This document shows, piece after piece, positions 4,607 through 34,320 of a DNA stretch of 64,000 nucleotides. Position 1 is the first letter of the stretch, and each line of letters begins with the position of its first letter. The stretch spans positions 1 to 64,000 of the forward strand of contig JAHRWZ010000059.1 in the NCBI GenBank assembly GCA_019104865.1. The letters are read 5' to 3'. Position numbers and translations under genes: made by a program. The stretch is from Castellaniella sp. (lineage in GTDB: Bacteria; Pseudomonadota; Gammaproteobacteria; Burkholderiales; Burkholderiaceae_B). The notes beneath the pieces are model-generated. The model was not told the origin of the DNA. It searched no databases and saw nothing but the letters and a program-made list of their open reading frames with translations.

Positions 4607-5115
4607 CAGTGAATGAAAAGGGATGGTTGAAGTTGAGACTCCAGCGCTTCGCGCCGTCGCCTGAAATCGGGAATGGCGTACTTACGCTCCAGCATCAGGC
4701 GCGATCCGAAGGACGCTTTGACCTGGGTGGAGACCTCCTCTGCCACCAGCGCCTGAAGTTGCTGATACAGGTTCTGCGTGCGCTGGCTTAGTGCATCACG
4801 CATGCGGTAGAACTCGCGGATCAACCGGACCTTGAATGCCACAACCTCGTCTGTGTTGCGCATCATCGAAATCAGCAGAGCGGCCTGCTGCTCGTTCAAC
4901 ATGGCGTATTCGGTCGGGGCGCCGCCGCCCTGTGGGCGTTTCACCACCCGCATTTCAAATGCCAGTGGGCCGAACTCCTGGAGGATGGCCGCATGCTGCC
5001 GGATCAACTGGATGACGCTCTTGTGCCTGGCCTTCATGCCGCGCGCGATCACGAGGCTGGATGCCAGGGGTTCACCGCCGATGACGGAGACCAGTGGCTC
5101 GAATGGTGTTTGCAT
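4606..5115 (-). CDS. Rha-family phage regulatory protein
   Basis: A 169-residue protein. The N-terminal ~90 residues match the Rha regulator pattern (SSLVIARGMKARHKSVIQLI, then LAFEMRVVKRPQGGGAPTEY and LNEQQAALLISMMRNTDEVV). The C-terminal half is helical and charged. Rha proteins are encoded by temperate phages and interfere with lytic growth in hosts lacking IHF; the biochemical mode is not settled. The start at 5115 follows GGGAGTG. The gene sits inside the tail operon but is bracketed by terminators (5201-5230 upstream, 4555-4606 downstream), so it is probably an independent cassette. A second Rha-like gene lies at 23114-23806. Confidence 0.8.
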   Translation of the reverse strand: MQTPFEPLVSVIGGEPLASSLVIARGMKARHKSVIQLIRQHAAILQEFGPLAFEMRVVKRPQGGGAPTEYAMLNEQQAALLISMMRNTDEVVAFKVRLIREFYRMRDALSQRTQNLYQQLQALVAEEVSTQVKASFGSRLMLERKYAIPDFRRRREALESQLQPSLFIH

Positions 5116-5200
5116 GTTCACTCCCTGCAATGCCCTGGAAATGAGGATGGCCGCAGCAGCGCCCCAGGGAAGGCGATTTCGGATGCCTCCTAGCTGCGAC

Positions 5201-5230
5201 CAAAACAAAGGCCGCCCAACCGGACGGCCT
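5201..5230 (-). terminator. Intrinsic terminator after the tail terminator gene
   Basis: On the minus strand AGGCCG (5230-5225) pairs with CGGCCT (5214-5209) and is followed by TTGTTTTG. It separates the structural gene at 5250-5624 from the Rha-like cassette. Confidence 0.65.
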
Positions 5231-5249
5231 GAAATTGATTGTTGAGCGC

Positions 5250-5624
5250 CTATTCAGCAGGAATGGCTACCTCGATGATCCTGCGATGCAGCTTCAGATC
5301 GGCGTCGTAATCGGCCAGATCGTTGAGCCGCACAGACAGCGGGAATTGTGTTTCGATGGCCGCAAACACCTGGGCCCGCAGCGTGAGAACAGCCCCGAAG
5401 GATGGGCTGTACAAATCGATCTGAACGCGGTGATCTTCCAAGTCGGACGCCCCGCAGATCGTGTTGTCAGGCGTCGTAATGTCGGCCGGGATCACGATGG
5501 CCGACCATCCGGCACGATCCGGGCTATCCAGAACCGGCGGCGCATCCAGCGGCAGGACGGCGAAGTGCACGCCACCAGTCACCACAGGCAGCAGGCAGGC
5601 GCGCAGGTCGGATTGCATGGTCAT
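5250..5624 (-). CDS. Tail terminator/completion protein (gpU/DUF3168-like)
   Basis: A 124-residue protein (MTMQSDLRACLLPVV... to IIEVAIPAE) placed after the HK97 gp10-like gene with an ATGA overlap. The start MQSDLRACLLPVV and the central VQIDLYSPSFGAVLTLRAQV fit the DUF3168/gpU type that caps the finished tail tube. The place in the operon is the usual one, between gp10 and the tube protein. The family call rests on general sequence character plus synteny. Confidence 0.7.
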   Translation of the reverse strand: MTMQSDLRACLLPVVTGGVHFAVLPLDAPPVLDSPDRAGWSAIVIPADITTPDNTICGASDLEDHRVQIDLYSPSFGAVLTLRAQVFAAIETQFPLSVRLNDLADYDADLKLHRRIIEVAIPAE

Positions 5625-6699: not shown

Positions 6700-7466
6700 A
6701 CCTTCACTCCTTCATCCTTGTCATGCAGGCTCGCGCTGTCGCGCAGATCGCGACCATCGCGGCCCTTCTTCACCGCCAGGCGCCATGCCTTGCTGGCGCC
6801 GGGAGCGTCCGTGGTGTCTTGTTGGGCAATCCACAGGCTGCCACCATAGGTCACGGCATCGCCCTTTTCGTATTGTTTTTGTTCCCACACACCGCGATCC
6901 AGAATGGTGTCCAGCTTGATCGTGCGCTCCACGCTGCCCAGCTTGATCGTCACGGAGCGTTCTGTCTGCGTGATCTCCAGCGACTCAATGGGTGCCGCAT
7001 CCTTGCCGTCGCGGCCGTCTTTCGGGGCCGGCATCCTGTCGATCGCGCGCTGGAATTCGTCGCGGGCCTGCCGTTCCCAACTCAAGGCCATGTCAGAAAA
7101 GCGGCGCTCAAATTTTGCGGCAACGGCGTCAGCAATCGCGGCCTCAGAAACCGGCTCGGCATCCTTGCCGTCGACGCCGTCACGCCCGTCCTTGCCGTCC
7201 AGTCCGTCCTTGCCCGGCGCCCCCTCCTTGCCATCCTTGCCATCCTCGGGGGCAGGCAAGGAAGCGATTGCAGCGCGCACCTGATCCTCGATCAATGGCC
7301 GCACATCATCAACAGTCACGCTCTTTCCGTCGACGCCGTCTTTTCCATCAGCGCCTTTGATCGGCCCGCGATCTTCCAGCGCCTTGATTCGATCCGATAG
7401 CGGCTGGACCGCCGATTTGACGTAGCCAGCCAGGTCGTCGATCAGCATCTTCAGTTCGTCAAGCAT
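6696..7466 (-). CDS. Collagen-like virion protein with C-terminal carbohydrate-binding-like module
   Basis: A 256-residue protein. The N-terminal ~35 residues form a coiled-coil-like helix (LIDDLAGYVKSAVQPLSDRIKALE). Blocks of Gly-X-Y repeats follow at about residues 37-50, 74-102 and 149-158 (for example GKDGLDGKDGRDGVDGKDA), as in short phage collagen-like rods. Residues about 190-235 (GVWEQKQYEKGDAVTYGGSL, then WIAQQDTTDAPGA) resemble the small ChiC/CBM5-like sugar-binding fold found on phage fibres and decoration proteins. The position between portal and connector genes suggests a capsid or neck appendage. The function is inferred. Confidence 0.7.
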   Translation of the reverse strand: MLDELKMLIDDLAGYVKSAVQPLSDRIKALEDRGPIKGADGKDGVDGKSVTVDDVRPLIEDQVRAAIASLPAPEDGKDGKEGAPGKDGLDGKDGRDGVDGKDAEPVSEAAIADAVAAKFERRFSDMALSWERQARDEFQRAIDRMPAPKDGRDGKDAAPIESLEITQTERSVTIKLGSVERTIKLDTILDRGVWEQKQYEKGDAVTYGGSLWIAQQDTTDAPGASKAWRLAVKKGRDGRDLRDSASLHDKDEGVKV

Positions 7467-8787
7467 TTGCAGTTACCTCGAATTTTCGTTTCGCGTAGAT
7501 CCGCGCCTGCTTCAAATCGCTATTTGTCTTGGCGGCATCGCTGGCTGCTTCGCTGCTGGCCTTGCCGCGACTGAAAGGATCATCCTGAGCGTCCCGCTTG
7601 GCCAACGCTTCCAGGCTGTAGTTCTGCTGCTGCATGTAGATGCTGTCGCCGCCGGACAGCGGCTTGAGTCCGACCTTTGCGCGGGCCTCATTGGGCGTGC
7701 TAATGCTGCCATCCACGCTCTTTGCCAGCGTTTCAATGATGGTGGCCGCATCCATGCGCAGCAGGTCATCGGTATCCAACTCAACGATCGTGCCAGCTGG
7801 AAGATCCAGGCCGGCGTCCAGGCAGGCCTCCATCTCTTCGATCAGTACCTGCAGGCAGTCGCTGTAGTAGATGAGGTTTCCTTCCTGGGGTTTCGTGGGA
7901 GCCTGTCCCATGCCGATCTTGAACGGCGGAACATGAAAGCAACTCGCGACGATGTCGGCGGAAAGCTTCAGGTGTTCGACAATCTGGCTGTCAATTCCCT
8001 TGGCGCGCATAGCCTGAAAGCTCAAGCCGTCGCCCACGACAGCCACGCGCCCAGCCTTGGCGCCCGTGAAATTCGTATTCCACTGGTCGGAAAGTGACTT
8101 CGCTGTTTCCTTGCTGATCGCGCCAGGCGCGGACAGCACTCCGGAGAGGCTCGCGCCGTTCTCGATGAATGTGCGGCTGTCCTCTTGAATTTTCTTGCCC
8201 AGGGCGCCTGCCAATGCGGCTGCGTAGACAGGCGACACGCCGACCAGGGGATGAAACTGCGGCTGATAGCGGTCGTGAATGATCTCGGATGCTTCCACCA
8301 CCATCTGGGTTTCGTGAACGCCAGCGAGATTGTCCGTATTCAGTTGGTAATAGACGCTGCCATCGTCGGCCACGAGCGGCATGACCTTTTGCGGATCAAG
8401 CACATACAGCGCCTCGATTTTTCCGCCCACGCCTCGCTGTTTCAGGACATAGGTATTGCCGTTTGCCAGTTTGGAATTGATCCACCACTGACGAAACTGC
8501 ACGCCGTTCTGGTAGCGGTTCGGGCGCGCCAATAGCTTGTGCGTCGAGTCTTCCAGGATCTTCCAGACACGATCGGAGTCACGGCGCCTTACTTGGGCGG
8601 CCATCTTGCTGATGTCGCCCGAAATGAGCGTCGTGCAGGCGTAGATGGCGAAGAAGTCGCGCACGTCAGACAGGCGCACCTCTTTGTTCTGTTGCCATGC
8701 GCCTGTGAACGGCTCGCGGACCCACGGCCACCACCCGCCAACGGGCACGCTATTGAGCGCTTTCCGGCGATTCTTGAACGGCCACAT
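7459..8787 (-). CDS. Phage portal protein (HK97 family)
   Basis: A 442-residue protein that forms the dodecameric portal through which DNA is packaged. Family blocks are visible: an N-terminal KNRRKALNS, AIYACTTLISGDISKMAAQV, PNRYQNGVQFRQWW, LKLSADIVASCFHVPPFKIG and the late STPNEARAKVGLKPL. The length is normal for the family. It overlaps the small gene upstream by 38 bases and the collagen-like gene downstream by eight. Confidence 0.95.
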   Translation of the reverse strand: MWPFKNRRKALNSVPVGGWWPWVREPFTGAWQQNKEVRLSDVRDFFAIYACTTLISGDISKMAAQVRRRDSDRVWKILEDSTHKLLARPNRYQNGVQFRQWWINSKLANGNTYVLKQRGVGGKIEALYVLDPQKVMPLVADDGSVYYQLNTDNLAGVHETQMVVEASEIIHDRYQPQFHPLVGVSPVYAAALAGALGKKIQEDSRTFIENGASLSGVLSAPGAISKETAKSLSDQWNTNFTGAKAGRVAVVGDGLSFQAMRAKGIDSQIVEHLKLSADIVASCFHVPPFKIGMGQAPTKPQEGNLIYYSDCLQVLIEEMEACLDAGLDLPAGTIVELDTDDLLRMDAATIIETLAKSVDGSISTPNEARAKVGLKPLSGGDSIYMQQQNYSLEALAKRDAQDDPFSRGKASSEAASDAAKTNSDLKQARIYAKRKFEVTANA

Positions 8788-19831: not shown

Positions 19832-20082
19832 CTGCGCCCCCGAAACAGCCTGGGGTCATAGCGGCAGTCCTGGGCCGCTCCTGCAGCACCTGCAGCACCT
19901 GCATGTTTTCGGCGCTCCTGCATGTCCTGCACCTTTGCGCGCCACCGACTGCGGCCGCGCCACTGCTGGATGAACACCAGCAGCCCGCCGAAGAACAGGA
20001 GCAAAGCGACCGCAGCCAGCACCAGCAGGATGATGACCGTAGGGGTGGCCAGCACCGCCAGGAAGAAGGTCGAGGCGGTCAT
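19828..20082 (-). CDS. Small phage membrane protein
   Basis: An 84-residue protein with one long hydrophobic segment (FLAVLATPTVIILLVLAAVA and LLLFFGGLLVFI, about residues 6-38), then a basic region (RGRSRWRAKVQDMQERRKHA) and a GAAGAAGAA run encoded by short tandem repeats. It looks like one or two membrane helices with a cytoplasmic tail. It is the first gene of the coupled chain leading to the replication genes. The function is unknown. Confidence 0.6.
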   Translation of the reverse strand: MTASTFFLAVLATPTVIILLVLAAVALLLFFGGLLVFIQQWRGRSRWRAKVQDMQERRKHAGAAGAAGAAQDCRYDPRLFRGRR

Positions 20083-20169
20083 TGGTGGATCCCCCGCATA
20101 TGGGCGGCCCGCCCCAGCCCGATAGAATGGCTGCTCTCACACGAACCATTGATCAGGAAGGGGCCGGCC

Positions 20170-20538
20170 ATGAAACGAGACATGGACTTGATTCGGCGCA
20201 TCGCGCTCGAAACAGCGGAACTGCCGTTCGGAGACACGCTCCGCGGAATGGCGGACGTCGAGCATGACGTCTTCGCGCAGCACGTGATTTGGATGCAAGA
20301 GGCAGGCTTGGTCGCCGCCATCGTTGAGGAAACCCTGGGCGACGAGCCGTTCGTCGAGGTACACCGCCTCACATGGGACGGGTGTGAATTTGCGGATGCC
20401 GTCCGAAGCGACACGCTATGGGCCAAGGCCAAAACATCGGTCATCAAGCCTGCCACGTCATTCACCTTTTCCGTCTTGCGTGAGTGGCTTAAGGCCGAGA
20501 TCCAGCAGGGCCTGCCGACCCTCCGGGGTGGCGTATAG
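20170..20538 (+). CDS. DUF2513 family protein
   Basis: A 122-residue protein. The start MKRDMDLIRRIALETAELPF and the later LTWDGCEFADAVRSDTLWAK are the signature blocks of DUF2513, a helical family of unknown role common in mobile elements. The start follows AGGAAGG. It points rightward, against the Cro-side operon, and its end overlaps the leftward gene at 20458 by 81 bases, so it must have its own promoter. Confidence 0.85.
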   Translation: MKRDMDLIRRIALETAELPFGDTLRGMADVEHDVFAQHVIWMQEAGLVAAIVEETLGDEPFVEVHRLTWDGCEFADAVRSDTLWAKAKTSVIKPATSFTFSVLREWLKAEIQQGLPTLRGGV

Positions 20539-20712
20539 GACGTCGTGCAGATCGCAGGCAGCCGCCCGCAGGACGCGTTCCTCCGTAGACATGCCGGCGT
20601 TACCGACGGCTGCATCAACAGCGCGTAGCCGGTCACGCACTTTCAGCGATGAGCCGGACCGTCGCATCCATGCGTTTGCCAGCTTGGCGACCGAATTGGC
20701 GAGATCACGCAT
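20458..20712 (-). CDS. Small phage early protein of unknown function
   Basis: An 84-residue helical protein (MRDLANSVAKLANAWMRRSG ... DVLYATPEGRQALLDLGL). The ATG at 20712 overlaps the end of the regulator gene upstream by eight bases. It belongs to the Cro-side leftward transcript. No family is recognised. Confidence 0.6.
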   Translation of the reverse strand: MRDLANSVAKLANAWMRRSGSSLKVRDRLRAVDAAVGNAGMSTEERVLRAAACDLHDVLYATPEGRQALLDLGLKPLTQDGKGE

Positions 20713-21409
20713 CACCGCCCTCCCCGCCGCAGACTTCGCGGTGAAGCTGCATGAGCCGCACGCCGTTCGCGTAGGTCGGCATCCAGGGGCGATCCGAGGG
20801 CCTCGACGCATCAGTGATGGTGGCGCGCTCAACGCCGAGACGGCGCGCCACGTCGGCCTTGCGGATGCCCGTGCGCAGGATCTCGTTCAGGATCGGGCGC
20901 AGGTCATCCAGGACAGGGAAGGCTCGATTTGAAATCTGGGCATCGGCCTTGCCCGGTCGATCGGAATCCCGGCTGCGCACATACGCCCAATCAGCGTCCG
21001 GACACAGATCCTCGAACGGCACCCTGCCGGCCGACTCCCGGTCAATGGCAATGGCCAGGGAAGCACTGCATTGGCGGTTCCCATAGGCGACTTGCCGCAA
21101 GTAGCCCACGGTCGTATCGCAGGCTGCAGCGAAGGCTTCCTGGCGCTCGACAGACCGGCCGTTGAGGAAGGCCAACAGCGCGCCCGCGCCGCTTTGTTGC
21201 GTCCTATCGTTGGACATAACAAAGCCCGATACCGGCTCACCGGGCCGGACGAGGCCTCGAAGTGACAACCCATGAATTCCGATATACCCACCACCGATGG
21301 CAGACGTCCGTGCTGCGGCACTTCCGGATTTGAGATCGGAATGTTCCGCCGAAATGACCGTATCCCCGATGGTGATGGACTCGCCGGGACGGAGTGTGAT
21401 GCTACGCAT
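20705..21409 (-). CDS. Early regulator with Cro/YdaS-like helix-turn-helix (CII position)
   Basis: A 234-residue frame. From residue 65 (MSNDRTQQSGAGALLAFLNG) it resembles Cro/YdaS-type DNA-binding proteins (AFAAACDTTVGYLRQVAYGN; SASLAIAIDRESAGRVPFED). A second helix-turn-helix-like block is at about residues 178-200 (TGIRKADVARRLGVERATIT). Residues 1-64 begin MRSITLRPGESITIGDTVIS, which recalls the first strands of CsrA but lacks the rest of that fold. The gene follows the Cro-like gene with an eight-base overlap, the place of lambda cII. Either one two-part protein is made or a second start at 21217 is used. Confidence 0.6.
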   Translation of the reverse strand: MRSITLRPGESITIGDTVISAEHSDLKSGSAAARTSAIGGGYIGIHGLSLRGLVRPGEPVSGFVMSNDRTQQSGAGALLAFLNGRSVERQEAFAAACDTTVGYLRQVAYGNRQCSASLAIAIDRESAGRVPFEDLCPDADWAYVRSRDSDRPGKADAQISNRAFPVLDDLRPILNEILRTGIRKADVARRLGVERATITDASRPSDRPWMPTYANGVRLMQLHREVCGGEGGDA

Positions 21410-21602
21410 GGGCGGCTCCTTTCGGCTCCACGCCGGAGAACAAGTCCGGACGGGCCAGGCGCAAGAACATCATGCGCGAATTCGGTATCCCTGTTCGGCG
21501 CCACTCCGACACGGAAGGCGATTTGATGTCGAACATTCGGGCGACCTCCATCGTCCCGCCGAGCCGATCGATGAGTGCCGAGTGCGGATGTGGTGTTTTC
21601 AT
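21402..21602 (-). CDS. Cro-like repressor
   Basis: A 66-residue DNA-binding protein: MKTPHPHSALIDRLGGTMEV then ARMFDIKSPSVSEWRRTGIP, a compact helix-turn-helix of the Cro/YdaS type with recognition helix near SPSVSEWRRTG. It is transcribed leftward, divergent from the CI-like repressor, and its promoter contains the shared operators. It should commit the phage to lytic growth by repressing the repressor promoter. I chose the ATG at 21602 over 21611 because it gives the usual start. Confidence 0.82.
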   Translation of the reverse strand: MKTPHPHSALIDRLGGTMEVARMFDIKSPSVSEWRRTGIPNSRMMFLRLARPDLFSGVEPKGAAHA

Positions 21603-21609
21603 GGATAGC

Positions 21610-21638
21610 ATTATTAGGCATGCCTATTATTATGTCAA
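21610..21638 (-). promoter_or_regulatory. Leftward early promoter (PR-like) of the Cro operon
   Basis: On the minus strand TTGACA (21638-21633) is 17 bases from AATAAT (21615-21610). Operator 21615-21626 lies in the spacer and reaches the -10, and operator 21637-21648 touches the -35. The start of the Cro-like gene is about eight bases beyond the -10 box, so the leader is very short. Confidence 0.75.
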
Positions 21639-21673
21639 GGCACACCTAACCAATAGTCTATTAGGATGGCCTA
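21615..21673. promoter_or_regulatory. Immunity operators O1-O3
   Basis: Three related 12-base sites lie between the divergent regulators: TAGGCATGCCTA (21615-21626, perfect palindrome), AAGGCACACCTA (21637-21648) and TAGGATGGCCTA (21662-21673). Their starts are 22 and 25 bases apart, as in a lambda-like right operator. Exact copies of the first type and a close match to the second recur at 23804-23840. Confidence 0.8.
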
Positions 21674-21676
21674 ATC

Positions 21677-22057
21677 ATGAAGACACTTGCAGAACGACTC
21701 TCAGAAGCCCTTACAAAGACAGGGCACACCAAAGCGGATCTGGCGCGCGCATGCGGGGTGGCGGCACCGTCCGTAAACGACTGGTTTTCGGGAAAAACAA
21801 AGAGCCTCAAAGGGAGCAGTCTGATACGGGCCTCGAACTTCCTTGGGGTCAGGAGCTTGTGGCTTGCCGAAGGCAAAGGACCAAGGACAAACGATGAGGC
21901 GCACTCTGCAGTGGTCGAGCCGACGGCCGACTCAGCCGACCTATGGCCGTTCAGACTCGTGTCCAAGCAGGACTACGACCGCCTGACGACGGATGAGCAG
22001 CGCGACCTCGACAAGACTGTGGCGAGGTTTATTGCGGGGTGTTTGGCGGGGCGGTAG
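21677..22057 (+). CDS. CI-like prophage repressor without peptidase domain
   Basis: A 126-residue repressor. Residues 1-65 are a helix-turn-helix domain (TLAERLSEALTKTGHTKADL, ARACGVAAPSVNDWFSGKTK, LIRASNFLGVRSLWLAEG). The C-terminal part (LWPFRLVSKQDYDRLTTDEQ) is a short dimerisation-like tail. There is no S24/LexA-type protease domain, so RecA-driven self-cleavage cannot be the induction switch; an antirepressor is more likely. It diverges from the Cro-like gene across the three operators, and its start is very close to the probable transcription start. Confidence 0.85.
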   Translation: MKTLAERLSEALTKTGHTKADLARACGVAAPSVNDWFSGKTKSLKGSSLIRASNFLGVRSLWLAEGKGPRTNDEAHSAVVEPTADSADLWPFRLVSKQDYDRLTTDEQRDLDKTVARFIAGCLAGR

Positions 22058-22082
22058 CGGCCCGCCTGGCCTTGGGGTAACG

Positions 22083-23003
22083 ATGTCCGTACCACGCGAA
22101 CAAGAATTCATATCGTCGATGCGATACCTGGCGGAAATCATGCCAGAGGAAATTGCAGAAAAATTTTCCCTGCGCTCTATACGTCGAGGAAACCCCAAGG
22201 ATGTTTCGGTCTCTGTGTCTGAATTTGCCTCATGGAATGACCGGAGATTTAAAGACGCATCCACTTTAGGGGCGCTGGGCTGGGTCAATAAAGACAGAAT
22301 GGCAGAGCGGGCAATCAAATCAGCAAGCCCCAGGAAAAAAGAGAGGAAGAGCAGAGCAGAAATACTCGATAAAATATGCTCTAAGGTGTTGTCTTATGCG
22401 GAGAGCGCCACCGCAGACGATTTTGCTGTGATCAATTACCTGACATCGGTTGCCGACCGATCAGTGGTTTACCCTCTAGCAATAATATGTGCGCTGCATG
22501 AGTACCACCACAACAACGCGGCTGTTATCTCGGCAAATAATAAAGAACGCCAGATAAATGCCCTGAAAGAAAAGGCATTGGCAGGGCTTGAGGCGATCAA
22601 TGAGATTCAGAAGCTAAGCGCAGCCAATCTTTACTCCAGCTCATCTCTTGGAAAAATAGATGCTTTGCATAAAAGACGGCTGCATGAGCTTGAGCGGCAT
22701 TGGAGTTTCGCTGTGCGCACACTTCATCCGATACGTAGAAATGACGCAACGGCCCGGGAACGCCTGTTTATCTATCGAATCTGGCAGGCCAACATGGGGA
22801 TATTCAGGAATTCCAAGACCAGAGCCATCCAATACTTTCTCTTAATGGAAGGAATAGAGAATCAAATGGATGAGAGAAATATCAGCAAGGCGTGCGCCGC
22901 CTTCGCCGAGAAATACAAGGATTTTTCCCATAGTTACCACTGGCGCTTGTTCAAACATATAAGGCGCAACAACTGCCAGGGATTTGATGAAAGCTATGGC
23001 TAG
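22083..23003 (+). CDS. A/T-rich prophage gene of unknown function behind the repressor
   Basis: A 306-residue protein (MSVPREQEFISSMRYLAEIM ... CQGFDESYG) starting 25 bases after the repressor stop and probably made from the same transcript in the lysogen. Base use differs from the rest of the phage: 22621-22680 has 25 G/C of 60, while 23401-23460 has 39 of 60. It looks mainly helical, with a basic stretch near residue 80 (KSASPRKKERKSRAE), a moderately hydrophobic segment near residue 125 (SVVYPLAIICALHEYHHNN) and aromatic and His-rich motifs late (FSHSYHWRLFKHIRRNN). I recognise no family. The location and foreign composition are typical of prophage defence or exclusion genes; this is inference. 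Confidence 0.8.
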   Translation: MSVPREQEFISSMRYLAEIMPEEIAEKFSLRSIRRGNPKDVSVSVSEFASWNDRRFKDASTLGALGWVNKDRMAERAIKSASPRKKERKSRAEILDKICSKVLSYAESATADDFAVINYLTSVADRSVVYPLAIICALHEYHHNNAAVISANNKERQINALKEKALAGLEAINEIQKLSAANLYSSSSLGKIDALHKRRLHELERHWSFAVRTLHPIRRNDATARERLFIYRIWQANMGIFRNSKTRAIQYFLLMEGIENQMDERNISKACAAFAEKYKDFSHSYHWRLFKHIRRNNCQGFDESYG

Positions 23004-23113
23004 ACAGTAATGCCGGTCACGCGTAATCGAATCGCAGCCGCATCAACCGCCATTACCATCCAACTCCGAGACAGGCAACATACAGCCATGTTCACTTCCC
23101 GCAAGGGTTCGAC

Positions 23114-23806
23114 ATGGCAACGCAAACCAAGGCCGGCATCTGCCCGGCCATCGAAACCGACGACACGCCCATCCAGCTCACCCGGGGCGACGATCCCAGG
23201 GCCGATAGCCGCAATCTCGCGGCACGCCTGGGCGTCAAACACAAAAACACCTACGCGCTGATCAAAACCTACGCGGCTGACTTCAAACGGCTGGGGATAC
23301 TTCTGTTTGAAACGGAAGAAATATCTGGTCCCGGCCAGCCGGAGAAGTTCGCCCTGCTCAACGAAGACCAGGCGTATCTGCTCCTGACCTATTCCAAGAA
23401 CACCAAGCGGGTCCGGGAAATCAAGATCGCCCTCGTCATGGCCTTCCGCAAGGCCCGCCTGGCCGCCGACATCACGAAGGCGGAATATCTCCCCACCTAC
23501 CACGACCTGCACGGCCGGATCGGCCTGCTTGCAGCCGGCTCCCGCAACGCGCGCTTCGTCCACATGAACATGAACCGGCTGCTCAACCAGGCCGTGGGCA
23601 TTGGTGCCGGGGAACGAGGACGGCTCGACCTGCCCCACCGATCTCTGATGGTGGTGGCGCAGTCCGTGGCTGCTTCGGCAATGCGTGGGGCGGCGGACCA
23701 CCACGACGGCTACCGGGCGGCGAAGGATGCGCTGCGTGCACTCGGCAGAATCCCTCTGAAAGACGCGGACACCCATCGGGCTTGTCAGTCAGTCAAAAAT
23801 AAGTAG
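23114..23806 (+). CDS. Rha-family phage regulatory protein
   Basis: A 230-residue protein. Its first ~110 residues match the Rha pattern: DDPRADSRNLAARLGVKHKN, ALIKTYAADFKRLGILLFET and ALLNEDQAYLLLTYSKNTKR, followed by VREIKIALVMAFRKAR. The C-terminal half is helical and of unknown role. The start follows AAGGG. Its TAG stop codon is the first three bases of an immunity operator, so its end and the early promoter are interlocked. It lies downstream of the repressor and the A/T-rich gene, and may be read in the lysogen or from its own promoter. Confidence 0.82.
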   Translation: MATQTKAGICPAIETDDTPIQLTRGDDPRADSRNLAARLGVKHKNTYALIKTYAADFKRLGILLFETEEISGPGQPEKFALLNEDQAYLLLTYSKNTKRVREIKIALVMAFRKARLAADITKAEYLPTYHDLHGRIGLLAAGSRNARFVHMNMNRLLNQAVGIGAGERGRLDLPHRSLMVVAQSVAASAMRGAADHHDGYRAAKDALRALGRIPLKDADTHRACQSVKNK

Positions 23807-23844
23807 GCATGCCTATTGACAATCAAATTAGGCACACCTATCAT
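23804..23844 (+). promoter_or_regulatory. Rightward early promoter (PL-like) with two immunity operators
   Basis: TTGACA (23816-23821), 17 bases, then TATCAT (23839-23844): a near-consensus promoter. TAGGCATGCCTA (23804-23815) abuts the -35 and TAGGCACACCTA (23829-23840) lies in the spacer and touches the -10. A repressor bound here would block the early operon that starts at 24035. Confidence 0.85.
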
Positions 23845-23904
23845 TAGATTTGCAGCAGCCAACCTCGATTTGCTAGGCTGTTCTCAGCGAATAGGAAATA
23901 CACC

Positions 23905-23977
23905 ATGCAACGCAATCTCACGCCGCCCGCCCAGGCCGGATAAAACAAAACCCTCGGCAGCATTAGCTGAACGAGGG
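23905..23977 (+). promoter_or_regulatory. Early leader: 12-codon ORF and hairpin
   Basis: Within the ~190-base leader of the early operon a frame preceded by AGGAAA encodes MQRNLTPPAQAG and stops at 23943. Eight bases later CCCTCG (23951-23956) pairs with CGAGGG (23972-23977), enclosing a smaller AGC/GCT stem. No T-run follows. The layout suggests control of readthrough or translation in the leader, but no known antitermination site was identified. Confidence 0.4.
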
Positions 23978-24034
23978 CCTTGCAAGACCGGCTGTTGACG
24001 CAGCCGACCTTTAATCGGACCAAGGGAGATAACC

Positions 24035-24403
24035 ATGTCCAAGAAGATCGCCCCTACACGGGGTGAGGGGATTTCTACGCCTCAAATCATAGCAGCAAAC
24101 CCCAAATTGGGGAATACCCAAGCCTTTTCCGTGGCTGCGTTCGCCGAAACACTCGACGCCACGATCCAGGATCGCGCCATCGAGCCCATGCAGACAGCCG
24201 CCGAAGTGTTCGGGTGGATCGAAACTCTGGCATCGCTTGCGAAAGAAAAAAATACCTCTCGCACCAAGATCGATGACCTGGTCAAAATCATCCACCACCT
24301 CGCTGGCGATTTCTGCAATCACATCGACTGCGAGCGCGAAATGCTGCGCGACGAACACCTCCCCCGCCTGCTGGCGGCCCTGCCGAATGGGGGCGAAGCA
24401 TGA
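24035..24403 (+). CDS. First protein of the early operon, unknown function
   Basis: A 122-residue protein (MSKKIAPTRGEGISTPQIIA ... LLAALPNGGEA) preceded by AAGGGAGA. It looks helical, with one Cys-His cluster (GDFCNHIDCERE) that could bind a metal. Its stop overlaps the next start (ATGA). No family is recognised. As first gene of the strongest early promoter it is a candidate host-takeover protein, by position only. Confidence 0.65.
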   Translation: MSKKIAPTRGEGISTPQIIAANPKLGNTQAFSVAAFAETLDATIQDRAIEPMQTAAEVFGWIETLASLAKEKNTSRTKIDDLVKIIHHLAGDFCNHIDCEREMLRDEHLPRLLAALPNGGEA

Positions 24404-24942
24404 TCCCCCAAGAAATCACTCAAATCGCGACGCTGTTCCAAGCCATCCAGAACATCGCTGAACAGCACGACGACGAACACCGCTCGATCATCGCGGGATT
24501 GGCTAGCACGGGCCACGATCTCGCCTCGTACTTCGGCAATGTCCTCGACGGCGACAACAGCGACCCTGGCCCCCGCGCATCCGCCCACGGCATGCCCCAG
24601 GCAGTGCTGAACGAAGGCTACGAGGCAGCCCAGAAATGGTACGCCGATATGGTCGAGCGCATGGAAGCGCTTTGTCGACAGGAGTCACGCCGTCAAGGGC
24701 GCGAGATCATCGCCGGCTATTGCGTCAATTCCTGGCTCAAAGAGGCGTTCAACGACCTGCCTGCTGGCCAGCACGGTGCCTTTCTGGATGCCGTGGGCGC
24801 GTACCTCGTGACCCACTTGGCGTACGGCGAACCGACCAAGGAATTCCGTGCCACCTCCGACCTCTTGGCGATGTACGCCTCGACGCCGGCGGAGCAGGAT
24901 GCTTGGAGCGACCGCCACAACGATGAAGAGGTGGCGGCATGA
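24400..24942 (+). CDS. Early phage protein, unknown function
   Basis: A 180-residue acidic helical protein (MIPQEITQIATLFQAIQNIA; KWYADMVERMEALCRQESRR; LVTHLAYGEPTKEF). It overlaps both neighbours by four bases. No motif is recognised. Confidence 0.65.
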   Translation: MIPQEITQIATLFQAIQNIAEQHDDEHRSIIAGLASTGHDLASYFGNVLDGDNSDPGPRASAHGMPQAVLNEGYEAAQKWYADMVERMEALCRQESRRQGREIIAGYCVNSWLKEAFNDLPAGQHGAFLDAVGAYLVTHLAYGEPTKEFRATSDLLAMYASTPAEQDAWSDRHNDEEVAA

Positions 24943-25565
24943 GCACTATCACCCTCACCCTCCCCGCTCCCATCGGCGCCGAGCTTGGCGGCGGCATCTA
25001 CGTCGGCCCGCACTTCCAGCCGGACGGATCGGTTCGCCACCTGGTTTCTGCCACCGAATCCCTGGGCGATCACAAATGGGAAGACGCCAAGGACAAGGCC
25101 AGCGAATATCGCGGCGGCGGCTTCAATAGCTGGTTCCTGCCGTCCAAGAACGATCTGACGGTCGCCCTGCTGAACGCTCGGGACAAGTTCGACAAGGCCA
25201 TCCACTGGACCTCCACGCCCTACGGCGAGCGCCACGCCTGGGCCGTCGCTTTCGAGCCCGGCCGCGTGAGCACGGACAGCCGCAGCCTCGAGTTCCGCGT
25301 TCGTCCTTTCCGCGTTCATCAATTCATCCCTTCATCCCTTTCGCAGGTCGAGGTGGACCAACAGGGCCACCGACTCGCCTACGACACGGCCATCGACCAC
25401 AGCGGCCCGGCCCGGGCGATGCTCGATCTGGTCACCAGCACTGGCGGTGATTCCGGGTTCGATTCTTTTGAGCCGGAGCAGCAGCAGGCATACCTGCGCG
25501 CCGTCTATGCCCACGTCGCAGCGGCTGATGATGCGCTGCGCCTCATCGGAGGGTTCAAATCATGA
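24939..25565 (+). CDS. DUF1566-like early phage protein
   Basis: A 208-residue protein. Residues about 15-128 read like a DUF1566/Lcl C-type-lectin-like domain: GGGIYVGPHFQPDG, WEDAKDKASEYRGGGFNSWF, LPSKNDLTVALLNAR, WTSTPYGERHAWAVAFEPGR and FRVRPFRVH. The C-terminal ~80 residues are a separate helical region (LVTSTGGDSGFDSFEPEQQQ). These domains are usually found on exported proteins, but no signal peptide is present here. The function in a phage early operon is unknown. Confidence 0.65.
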   Translation: MSTITLTLPAPIGAELGGGIYVGPHFQPDGSVRHLVSATESLGDHKWEDAKDKASEYRGGGFNSWFLPSKNDLTVALLNARDKFDKAIHWTSTPYGERHAWAVAFEPGRVSTDSRSLEFRVRPFRVHQFIPSSLSQVEVDQQGHRLAYDTAIDHSGPARAMLDLVTSTGGDSGFDSFEPEQQQAYLRAVYAHVAAADDALRLIGGFKS

Positions 25566-28538: not shown

Positions 28539-29280
28539 CCTGAACCACCTGCGCCGCCTGGTCTCCTGGGTGCGCTGCGAGATCGGCCAGGATCCAGCCG
28601 AGATGCAGAAGACCATGATCAACATTGCCGACAAACTGTCGGTCGAGTCCCACGAAATCAGCGACGAAGGCAAGGCCCGCATGGTGGAAAGCTACCGCCG
28701 GGCCGCGGCGGTGCCGCAATACGTCCGCGATGCCATCAAGGCTCTGGATCGGTACGCCCGGCCGCCTGGGCAAGACGGTGGGTCGGAGAAGCGGCGCGCC
28801 GCCGTGGAAACCCGCGCCGATGCTGGCTCCGACGGCGGGCATGGACGGGCCTGCGCGCCTACCAGCATCAACCTTCAGTCCATGATCGGCTGGATGCGCC
28901 GCCGCCAGGGCTGGCCGCAGGTCATCGTGTCAGGGCGGATGGCTGGTGACATCGCGGATATGCTGTCCCTCCACGGTGGTGACACTCTCTATCTCGGATG
29001 CGCCCGGATGGGGCTGGCAGGGGCCAGCGATGAGGAAGTGCTGAACTACGTGCGTCTTTCCACGCAGAAGGCAGCCTCTGGACACAACGTCCTGCCTCTG
29101 GACACAGGCTCTGGACATAGCGCCCAGGAGGTAATCCAGCGCGCCGTGAACGCGATCGAGCGTCCCGAAGGCTTGACCGACACGCGATGGGAATACGTGA
29201 AGGCTGGCATTCGGCTGCTGGTGGCCGAGGTGAACCGCGTTGCCTCGGATTCCGCTCTGAAGGAGGTCGGCCATGAATAA
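28525..29280 (+). CDS. Early phage protein of unknown function
   Basis: A 251-residue protein (MKRSDLNHLRRLVSWVRCEI; then a helical DPAEMQKTMINIADKLSVES). A low-complexity linker (RAAVETRADAGSDGGHGRAC) separates it from a C-terminal part (INLQSMIGWMRRRQGWPQVI ... RVASDSALKEVGHE). The two halves look like separate small domains. It overlaps the BRO-like gene by eight bases. The function is not recognised. Confidence 0.65.
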   Translation: MKRSDLNHLRRLVSWVRCEIGQDPAEMQKTMINIADKLSVESHEISDEGKARMVESYRRAAAVPQYVRDAIKALDRYARPPGQDGGSEKRRAAVETRADAGSDGGHGRACAPTSINLQSMIGWMRRRQGWPQVIVSGRMAGDIADMLSLHGGDTLYLGCARMGLAGASDEEVLNYVRLSTQKAASGHNVLPLDTGSGHSAQEVIQRAVNAIERPEGLTDTRWEYVKAGIRLLVAEVNRVASDSALKEVGHE

Positions 29281-30899: not shown

Positions 30900-31295
30900 A
30901 TGGCAGAACTACTCCCCCGCCTCATTCGGGCGGGCAAGGCGCCGTCGTACCTAGGGGTCAGCCGCAACACCTTCAATCGCCACGTGCGCCCTCATCTGCG
31001 CGTGGTTGAGATCGGCCCCCAAGGCAAGGCCTTTGACCGTCTGGAACTGGACGCCTGGGTGGAGCGACACCTGGGACAAGAAGGAATTGACAGAGCACAC
31101 CCCCAGGGCGAAGATGGCCCCGGCAACAGCGGATGCGCTCATGGCAACGGAGATCATCAACCATGGCGCAAAACACAATCCCAGGGCTCAAGCTCCGGGG
31201 CGACGTCTGGCACATCGACAAGCAGATCAAAGGGTATGGCCGCCTTTGCGAAAGCACTGGAACGAGCAACCGCCAAGAGGCACAAACCTACCTGA
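30900..31295 (+). CDS. Excisionase-like helix-turn-helix protein
   Basis: A 131-residue protein. The first ~60 residues are a MerR/AlpA-type DNA-binding domain (LIRAGKAPSYLGVSRNTFNR, HVRPHLRVVEIGPQGKAFDR, LELDAWVERHLG). The remainder is low-complexity, ending SRSKGMAAFAKALERATAKR. It lies directly before the integrase gene and overlaps its start by 133 bases, the classical position of an excisionase that steers the integrase toward excision. Confidence 0.65.
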   Translation: MAELLPRLIRAGKAPSYLGVSRNTFNRHVRPHLRVVEIGPQGKAFDRLELDAWVERHLGQEGIDRAHPQGEDGPGNSGCAHGNGDHQPWRKTQSQGSSSGATSGTSTSRSKGMAAFAKALERATAKRHKPT

Positions 31296-32308
31296 TCTAT
31301 CGGCTTGAAAAAATTCGCCAATCCACCGTCTACGGGGTTCGCCAGGACCGCACCTGGCGGCAAGCCGCAACACGTTTTTTGGAGGAGTATTCGCACCAAC
31401 GATCAATATGGCATTCGGCGATTTTCTTGAAGCAGCTTGACCCCTATATTGGGGATATGGCGCTGCGTGAGATTGATGGCGAAGCGCTTGAACCCTACGT
31501 CGAGGACAGGCTTGCGCAAGGGAAGTCCAATCGAACCGTGAACATTGCCCTGCAAAGGGTCGTCAGGGTGCTCAATCTGTGCGCTCGGAAGTGGCGGGAC
31601 GAACACAAGCGGCCGTGGCTGGATTCGGTTCCTATGATCGAAATGCTCAGCGAGAAAAGCAGCCGCCAGCCTTACCCCCTATCCTGGGAAGAGCAGAAAG
31701 CGTTCTTCCTGGAACTGCCAGCGCACCTGAGAACGATGGCGCTCTACAAGGTCAACACGGGATGCCGAGAGCAGGAGGTCTGCAAATTGCGGTGGGAGTG
31801 GGAAATCGCCGTGCCTGAGTTGAAGACCAGCGTTTTCTTGCTACCAGCCGACTTCGGTGGCCGGTTTGAGGATTCTGGGGTGAAGAACGGCGAAGAACGG
31901 CTGGTGATCCTCAACCGTGTGGCCAAGTCCATCATCGACGGTCAGCGCGGCCAACATGCGGAATGGGTATTCCCGTACGAGGACGGCGCACTGAACCGGA
32001 TGAATGACACAGCCTGGCGAAACGCCAGACGGCGGGCGGCGGCGAAATGGGAGAAAGTCCACGGCGCCCCGGCGCATCCTGGTTTTGCGGGGCTGCGAGT
32101 CCACGACCTCAAGCACACTTTCGGGCGAAGGCTGAGAGCCGCAGACGTGCCAGAGGAAGATCGCAAGGCCCTACTGGGGCACACCAACGGCAGCGTGACA
32201 TCCCACTATTCTGCCGCGGAGCTGGGCAAGCTGATCGAGCTCGCAAATAAAGTGGTCGCAACCGGGGGGCACACCCCAGCGCTCACCGTGCTCAAGCGTG
32301 TTGCGTGA
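31163..32308 (+). CDS. Tyrosine-type phage integrase
   Basis: A 381-residue site-specific recombinase. Residues 1-60 form an arm-binding region (MAQNTIPGLKLRGDVWHIDK). A core-binding domain follows (RQAATRFLEEYSHQRSIWHS). The catalytic domain has the first Arg in VNTGCREQEVCKLRW, the box HDLKHTFGRRLRAA (Lys in place of the more usual Arg after HDL), LLGHTNGSVTSHY with the nucleophilic Tyr. The gene ends 73 bases from tRNA-Pro, the likely attachment site. I chose the ATG at 31163 as the conserved start. Confidence 0.92.
   Translation: MAQNTIPGLKLRGDVWHIDKQIKGYGRLCESTGTSNRQEAQTYLIYRLEKIRQSTVYGVRQDRTWRQAATRFLEEYSHQRSIWHSAIFLKQLDPYIGDMALREIDGEALEPYVEDRLAQGKSNRTVNIALQRVVRVLNLCARKWRDEHKRPWLDSVPMIEMLSEKSSRQPYPLSWEEQKAFFLELPAHLRTMALYKVNTGCREQEVCKLRWEWEIAVPELKTSVFLLPADFGGRFEDSGVKNGEERLVILNRVAKSIIDGQRGQHAEWVFPYEDGALNRMNDTAWRNARRRAAAKWEKVHGAPAHPGFAGLRVHDLKHTFGRRLRAADVPEEDRKALLGHTNGSVTSHYSAAELGKLIELANKVVATGGHTPALTVLKRVA

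Positions 32309-32381: not shown

Positions 32382-34320
<1,939 letters not shown>

Follow-up and report, generated by a model that had tools for sequence, protein, structure and literature searches.

A low-G+C gene behind the CI-like repressor of a Castellaniella prophage has relatives in satellite-like elements and is a tentative candidate for phage exclusion

Introduction

What does a gene of no recognised family do when it lies directly behind the repressor of a prophage? The question is raised by a 64,000-nucleotide stretch of Castellaniella sp. DNA (the window), which holds a tailed prophage whose genes for tape measure, head, terminase and primase/helicase lie to the left, on the minus strand. 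The gene, here called X, was singled out by an original prediction, made from the DNA letters, as a candidate exclusion system. The kind of gene is already known, namely repressor-linked prophage cargo, and the protein family of X is absent from the four libraries scanned.

The prophage and its immunity region

The features of the region are as follows.

21405-21611, minus strand: Cro-like DNA-binding protein, divergent from CI (P22_Cro, E 1.6e-4, under the curated cut-off; phrog_8008, DNA binding protein, E 6.8e-17)
21610-21638, minus strand: promoter-like TTGACA-17-AATAAT (11/12), directed towards Cro and overlapping operator-like sites
21614-21627: OR-like site 1, operator-like palindrome TTAGGCATGCCTAT, from pattern counts
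21636-21649: OR-like site 2, operator-like CAAGGCACACCTAA, from pattern counts
21661-21674: OR-like site 3, operator-like TTAGGATGGCCTAA, immediately 5' of CI, from pattern counts
21677-22057, plus strand: short CI-like repressor of 126 aa with an N-terminal HTH (Pfam HTH_3, E 1.6e-6; phrog_2328, transcriptional repressor, E 3.8e-13)
22083-23003, plus strand: gene X, an open reading frame of 306 codons (306 aa), unrecognised family
23114-23806, plus strand: Rha-family regulator, 3' of X and co-directional (PF09669, E 2.3e-12)
23803-23816: OL-like site 1, operator-like GTAGGCATGCCTAT, from pattern counts
23816-23844, plus strand: promoter-like TTGACA-17-TATCAT (11/12) over the OL-like sites, rightward, away from X and Rha
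23828-23841: OL-like site 2, operator-like TTAGGCACACCTAT, from pattern counts
31133-32308, plus strand: prophage integrase (phrog_1, integrase, E 6.7e-44), pointing outward to tRNA-Pro
32382-32458, minus strand: tRNA-Pro, the presumed attachment site; a 21-base piece of it is unique in the window

The contig starts at base 1 of the window inside the prophage, with the tape-measure gene at 583-2871, and the left attachment site therefore lies outside the window. No peptidase domain was found in the CI-like repressor (21677-22057). X begins 25 bases after the CI-like stop and runs in the same direction, a placement that the original prediction had given and that the open reading frames 21677-22057 and 22083-23003 confirm.

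The palindrome TTAGGCNNNCCTAA, with up to two mismatches, occurs at three places before CI/Cro and at two just 3' of Rha; elsewhere in the 64 kb it has two weak places. The operator-like pattern, counted on both strands with up to two mismatches, gave 12 matches against 4.6 expected (0 of 100 shuffles reached 12) and a shorter form gave 8 against 1.8 (one shuffle reached 8), counts that are flattering because the patterns were composed after the sites had been seen. The stronger point is the grouping of these sites at both ends of CI-X-Rha. Three promoter-like sites were found in the stretch, where 1.8 would be expected by chance, and the two best of them lie over the operator-like groups. By its anatomy, then, the CI-X-Rha segment is enclosed by two putative operator groups, as in the lambda immunity region. 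The rightward promoter-like site at the OL-like group should drive the early genes from 24035; further early genes lie between Rha and the integrase, and an antirepressor is found at 29273.

Standing second after the CI promoter region and inside the operator-like bounds, X should be transcribed together with CI. Membership of the repressor transcription unit, which had been predicted from adjacency, is thus upheld by position, since the operator-like sites flank CI-X-Rha. We infer from this anatomy that X would be made together with CI in the dormant state. We read X as a moron, or accessory, gene carried by a temperate tailed prophage.

Two other genes of the prophage deserve mention in their own right. 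The 234-aa protein encoded beside Cro at 20708-21409 (minus strand) has a YdaS-like stretch in its middle (PF15943, E 1.5e-5, below the cut-off; phrog_35, E 4.5e-13), and another weak HTH match lies close to its end; it is an unusual composite regulator. The half of the prophage that encodes structural proteins contains, at 4609-5253 (minus strand), a frame with 33% identity to the Rha protein of the window over 106 aa (E 2.6e-13). An Rfam scan of 20000-25000 gave no match.

Reading frame and base composition of X

X has a G+C content of 47.4% and a GC3 of 52%, against 57-65% and 64-86% in the 15 other genes measured. The counts on which a foreign origin had been suspected (25 G/C at 22621-22680, 39 at 23401-23460) are correct to the base, and the claim of a sharp contrast with the neighbours holds at the scale of the gene: among the 63,080 equally long (921-base) stretches of the window, 12 are lower in G+C and all of these overlap X. 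The low G+C is therefore not local noise. The other four genes of the family are also lower in G+C than their own loci (4/4).

The frame is coding, because other genomes encode homologues that are 20-35% identical to X in the alignment and can be aligned with it from a common start. X and three of the four homologues begin with M-x-[IVH]-P, and P4 is invariant in all five proteins; the homologue of genome G024 starts four residues upstream of this common start. A GGGG upstream of the ATG at 22083 could be the ribosome-binding site. A longer ORF of 336 aa, from 21993, finds no support: it overlaps CI, and the starts of the homologues match the ATG at 22083.

Homologues of X in prophages and satellite-like elements

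Four homologues were found, with BLASTP E values against X of 3e-43, 1e-17, 5e-13 and 4e-12. Among 268 genomes of the taxonomic family to which the host belongs, whole-genome searches detected the gene in 5, that of the window included, and a pattern scan of genome contigs gave three matches, in Paralcaligenes ureilyticus, Eoetvoesiella caeni and Neopusillimonas maritima. In an order sample (399 genomes) and a class sample (369 genomes) the window's own copy stood alone. Two further families gave 0/4 and 0/160 genomes, sets that had no positive control and carry little weight. Repeated scans of viral contigs revealed no member, searches of phage and plasmid records none beyond one weak match judged to be chance, and the DNA of the X region matched no phage record. 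On these searches the family looks rare. Two matches were set aside as chance: one of the G065 homologue to a Rhodococcus phage tailspike (E 0.2, over 31% of the query), the other within a 1636-aa frame of G054 (E 0.009).

One homologue lies in a second prophage, in genome G225 (loci L019 and L075), in which terminase, portal, tape measure, integrase and CI-like repressor were matched by PHROGs and whose replication protein is 47% identical to that of the window over 322 columns. Its start overlaps by 4 bases the stop of a short CI-like repressor gene (phrog_4, repressor, E 2e-7), and the protein (L019) is 20% identical to X over the alignment, or 25% over 227 aa by BLASTP. The CI-X pair is flanked on both sides by the inverted repeats CTATTT-n5/n7-AAATAG, a pattern composed after the sites had been seen, which has two matches in 16 kb, both flanking the pair (0 of 200 shuffles). 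The two repressors have in common a 27-aa BLASTP piece (E 0.006) and nothing else; X therefore keeps its place although the repressor differs.

The other three homologues, in G024, G065 and G086, belong to small satellite-like elements, where they occupy the interval from integrase to AlpA. The order in G024 is inward integrase, X, AlpA and rep, with X starting 1 base after the integrase stop; in G086 it is inward integrase, X, AlpA and a DnaB-like helicase, and X overlaps the second of two small ORFs 3' of the integrase. In G065, X follows the integrase sequence, which is divided between two ORFs, by 106 bases; AlpA and Rha are present, and no replication gene was identified in the element. 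X thus stands directly after a repressor or an integrase in four of the five loci, and two small ORFs intervene in the fifth. Among the three elements, a tRNA gene lies near the integrase in two, and replication genes together with terminase small subunits are present in two. A scan of ten chosen proteins of these elements recovered terminase small subunits and tail-like and lysozyme-like genes, and neither capsid nor portal among the ten. The presence of the family behind another repressor and behind the integrase of three satellite-like elements shows that X is mobile cargo, carried as an accessory by dormant elements of more than one kind and in places that are probably active during dormancy.

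Variable genes before AlpA and behind CI

AlpA loci that resemble the one in G024 number 17, in 15 of 267 genomes. An integrase lies upstream within the examined flank in 8/17 and Rha lies downstream in 8/17, as detected with profiles that were built from some of the same loci; a ninth integrase, that of G086, is further off than this flank. The gene before AlpA, assigned in 13 of the 17 loci (L056, L059, L061 and L062 being left out), is X in 3/17 and some other gene in 7/17; in a further 3/17 it belongs to a second family, which is marked by a W..W module at the C-terminus. When the 13 slot proteins were compared (BLASTP, E <= 0.01), links appeared within the two families alone and the seven others were mutually unlinked. 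The W..W module is common to the genes before AlpA in L057, L060 and L066. The slot genes of L054, L060, L063, L064, L066, L067 and L069 had no Pfam match above cut-off, and two slot genes other than X had no match in phage or plasmid records. Nine slot genes other than X searched against PADLOC gave 0/9 at E <= 0.001, the best being LmuB at E 0.0039, and PADLOC thus lends no support to the slot as a recognised defence hotspot.

The position behind CI is also variable. CI-like genes matched in 137 of 268 genomes and in two viral contigs, and X was present in 0 of the 30 other loci that were returned from these, a sample in which about 1.5 kb beyond the match was covered for most loci and in which many genes are probably ordinary chromosomal regulators. 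In G299 (L041 633-1171, minus strand) a W..W module, split over two frames and probably a broken copy, lies behind a CI-like gene; the second family is therefore common to prophage and satellite slots. In a viral contig (L022), the third ORF after the repressor (7464-8213, plus strand) encodes a DUF3800 protein (Pfam E 2.8e-14), the one solid Pfam match among the slot and CI-linked genes; the CI of this contig is about 52-55% identical, in the matched part, to that of the window. The immunity regions of phages and the integration zones of satellites seem to recruit genes of the same kinds. With X absent from 30/30 other CI-like loci and 14/17 AlpA loci, X is a repressor-linked accessory gene that is variable among relatives.

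The Rha of the window is 48-59% identical (BLASTP) to the Rha of six AlpA loci and has no BLASTP similarity to the Rha-family protein that accompanies X in G065 (E 0.30). X and Rha therefore did not necessarily move together. A single travelling cassette of X and Rha was considered and found to be unsupported, as the Rha of G065 is dissimilar and AlpA loci that have no X carry a closer one.

The recurrence of X between integrase and AlpA in three elements would fit a protein that assists the integration, excision or replication of its own element. We regard such a role as very unlikely, given that the same gene is absent from most AlpA loci (14/17) and that the two prophage copies lie about 8 kb (window) and about 4 kb (L019) from their integrases, in the repressor operon by position.

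Features of the X protein

Pfam, NCBIfam and PADLOC contain no family that matches X, with nothing in Pfam at E <= 1, and the best PHROG lies at E 0.097, in keeping with the earlier failure to recognise a family by eye. An ordinary replication or structural family, which had been named in advance as one finding that would speak against the idea, was looked for in PHROG and Pfam and not found; X as an ordinary replication or structural gene was rejected on the PHROG result. The anti-phage profiles of PADLOC-DB 2.0.0 gave 0 families up to E 10. Against the sequences of solved structures the best match of X was at E 1.4, and the family profile gave none up to E 10. A Pfam Tube match of one family member (E 0.043) was judged to be chance.

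Twelve residues are invariant in all five proteins, including E140-Y141, P216-I217, R219, R227, R232 and G257, and the family is marked by an invariant E-Y, an invariant P-I-x-R and a TARERL-like stretch. No membrane segment was found in the family, the highest 19-residue hydropathy being 1.46 in X and 1.75 in the family. Structure prediction with Foldseek, which had been proposed as a check, was carried out with limited yield. Two AlphaFold2 runs, both on four-row alignments that left out the G225 homologue, gave models with a mean pLDDT of 47.8 and 44.8, which are too poor for fold matching. Foldseek, applied to the first model only, gave no match at E <= 0.001 in PDB and BFVD, with all listed entries above E 0.1. 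The models weakly predict a mainly helical protein, and the best-predicted part of one of them comprises the helices 224-241, 246-255 and 264-276.

These features bear on the reading of X as an accessory regulator of dormancy, whose C-terminal helices would bind DNA while the remainder of the protein would detect another phage or a partner protein; X would tune the CI circuit or, in satellites, the int-AlpA circuit. In 5/5 loci the family adjoins regulators or an integrase: CI and Rha in the window, CI in L019, and integrase or small genes together with AlpA in the satellite-like elements. Four members have a basic pI of 8.8-10.5, against 6.5 in the remaining one, and the C-terminal helices (224-276) are the part of a poor model that is predicted best. 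Weak C-terminal HTH matches, below curated cut-offs, also occur in two other slot proteins (L063, HTH_Tnp_1, E 0.033; L067, HTH_Tnp_Tc3_2, E 0.0056). However, no HTH family of Pfam matches X itself. When the profile of X was compared with that of the C-terminal module in the second slot family, the match fell in the expected register and scored 13.3, below the maximum of 19.1 among 200 shuffles (mean 10.6); an HTH module common to the two is similar by eye, lies within this control and is kept as a lead only. X is also missing from the inspected loci that have the most similar CI, and is therefore not a constant partner of the window's repressor. On balance, a regulatory role appears rather unlikely, although among the alternatives to exclusion it is the strongest.

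Proposed function

The most likely function of X appears to be the exclusion of competing phages. X would act as a single protein in the cytoplasm: the dormant element would produce it, and competing phages would be blocked in their growth once inside the cell. This assignment is tentative because none of the nine slot genes matches a recognised defence family at E <= 0.001, unlike the situation in published hotspots, and because X itself matches no known defence family and has no assignable fold. A wider proposal, possible and advanced with somewhat less assurance, makes X the type member of a new one-protein exclusion family that would move between the immunity operons of prophages and the slot between integrase and AlpA in satellites. 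Full phages and their parasites would then share one weapon against competitors, located behind the gene that maintains the element in the chromosome.

The arguments from position and composition apply equally to lysogenic-conversion cargo, by which X would alter a host trait other than phage resistance, such as stress response, metabolism or growth, and moron genes with other functions are common. Nevertheless, nothing in X points to enzymatic activity, transport or secretion, as it has neither a family match nor a membrane segment, and its presence in small satellite-like elements would favour roles in conflict between elements. We consider lysogenic conversion unlikely.

If X excludes phages, as we tentatively propose, it would add a new family to prophage-encoded defence, one found in none of the four libraries scanned, and the gene before AlpA in satellite-like elements would be a place to seek more; in the loci examined, this place is occupied by many single genes that are unannotated and unlinked to one another. 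Should X instead be a regulator, phage and satellite switches would have it as a common component. The interest of the family lies in its occurrence in both prophage immunity operons and satellite integration zones.

Comparison with known systems

The anatomy of the locus recalls lambda cI-rexA-rexB. In both, genes follow the repressor in one direction and are enclosed by operator sites, which on the side of X are operator-like by anatomy only. RexA has 279 aa and X has 306. A relationship between the two was rejected on comparison with the lambda immunity region (J02459), in which the best BLASTP match was at E 6.6 and the hhalign probability was 0.2. RexAB also includes a small membrane partner, whereas X has none and is followed by a Rha regulator.

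A precedent for exclusion is offered by genes 43 and 44 of the Gordonia phage CarolAnn, which are described as co-expressed with the repressor and protective (PMC6426606). Like X, they are accessory genes in a repressor transcription unit, X being so by position. The likeness is one of description: the CarolAnn system has two genes and a RexA-like DUF4747 domain (PMC6426606), while X is a single gene with no recognised domain. The e4 gene of the Pseudomonas phage Fc02 is likewise accessory, has no assigned function in the account given there, and lies directly 3' of the repressor, within a region transcribed in the lysogen (PMC9936078). Fc02 is a B3-like (Mu-like) phage, unlike the one that carries X, and it is likened to X by its description (PMC9936078).

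A further precedent is the antiviral hotspots described in P2-like and P4-like elements, together with one that Vibrionaceae prophages have between cI and the integrase gene (PMC9122126). These hotspots resemble the X slots in that variable small cargo occupies fixed places of dormant elements. They differ in that recognised defence systems are reported there among unknown genes (PMC9122126), as against 0/9 at E <= 0.001 in the slots described here.

In the Pseudomonas satellite phiAH14b (KU708005), the order of integrase, 318-aa gene, AlpA, small gene and Rha, as reported, is near that of the X-bearing elements (PMC4936722). Between p02, the protein in its slot, and X no relationship could be detected (hhalign probability 0.1; hmmsearch E 0.059, score -1.3), and the Rha of phiAH14b is 56.5% identical to that of the window over 92 aa. 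Features of the Gram-negative PICIs, as these are described in PMC6092414 and PMC10111431, also occur among the elements that carry X homologues: an inward integrase, AlpA, and, in two of the three, replication genes and terminase small subunits.
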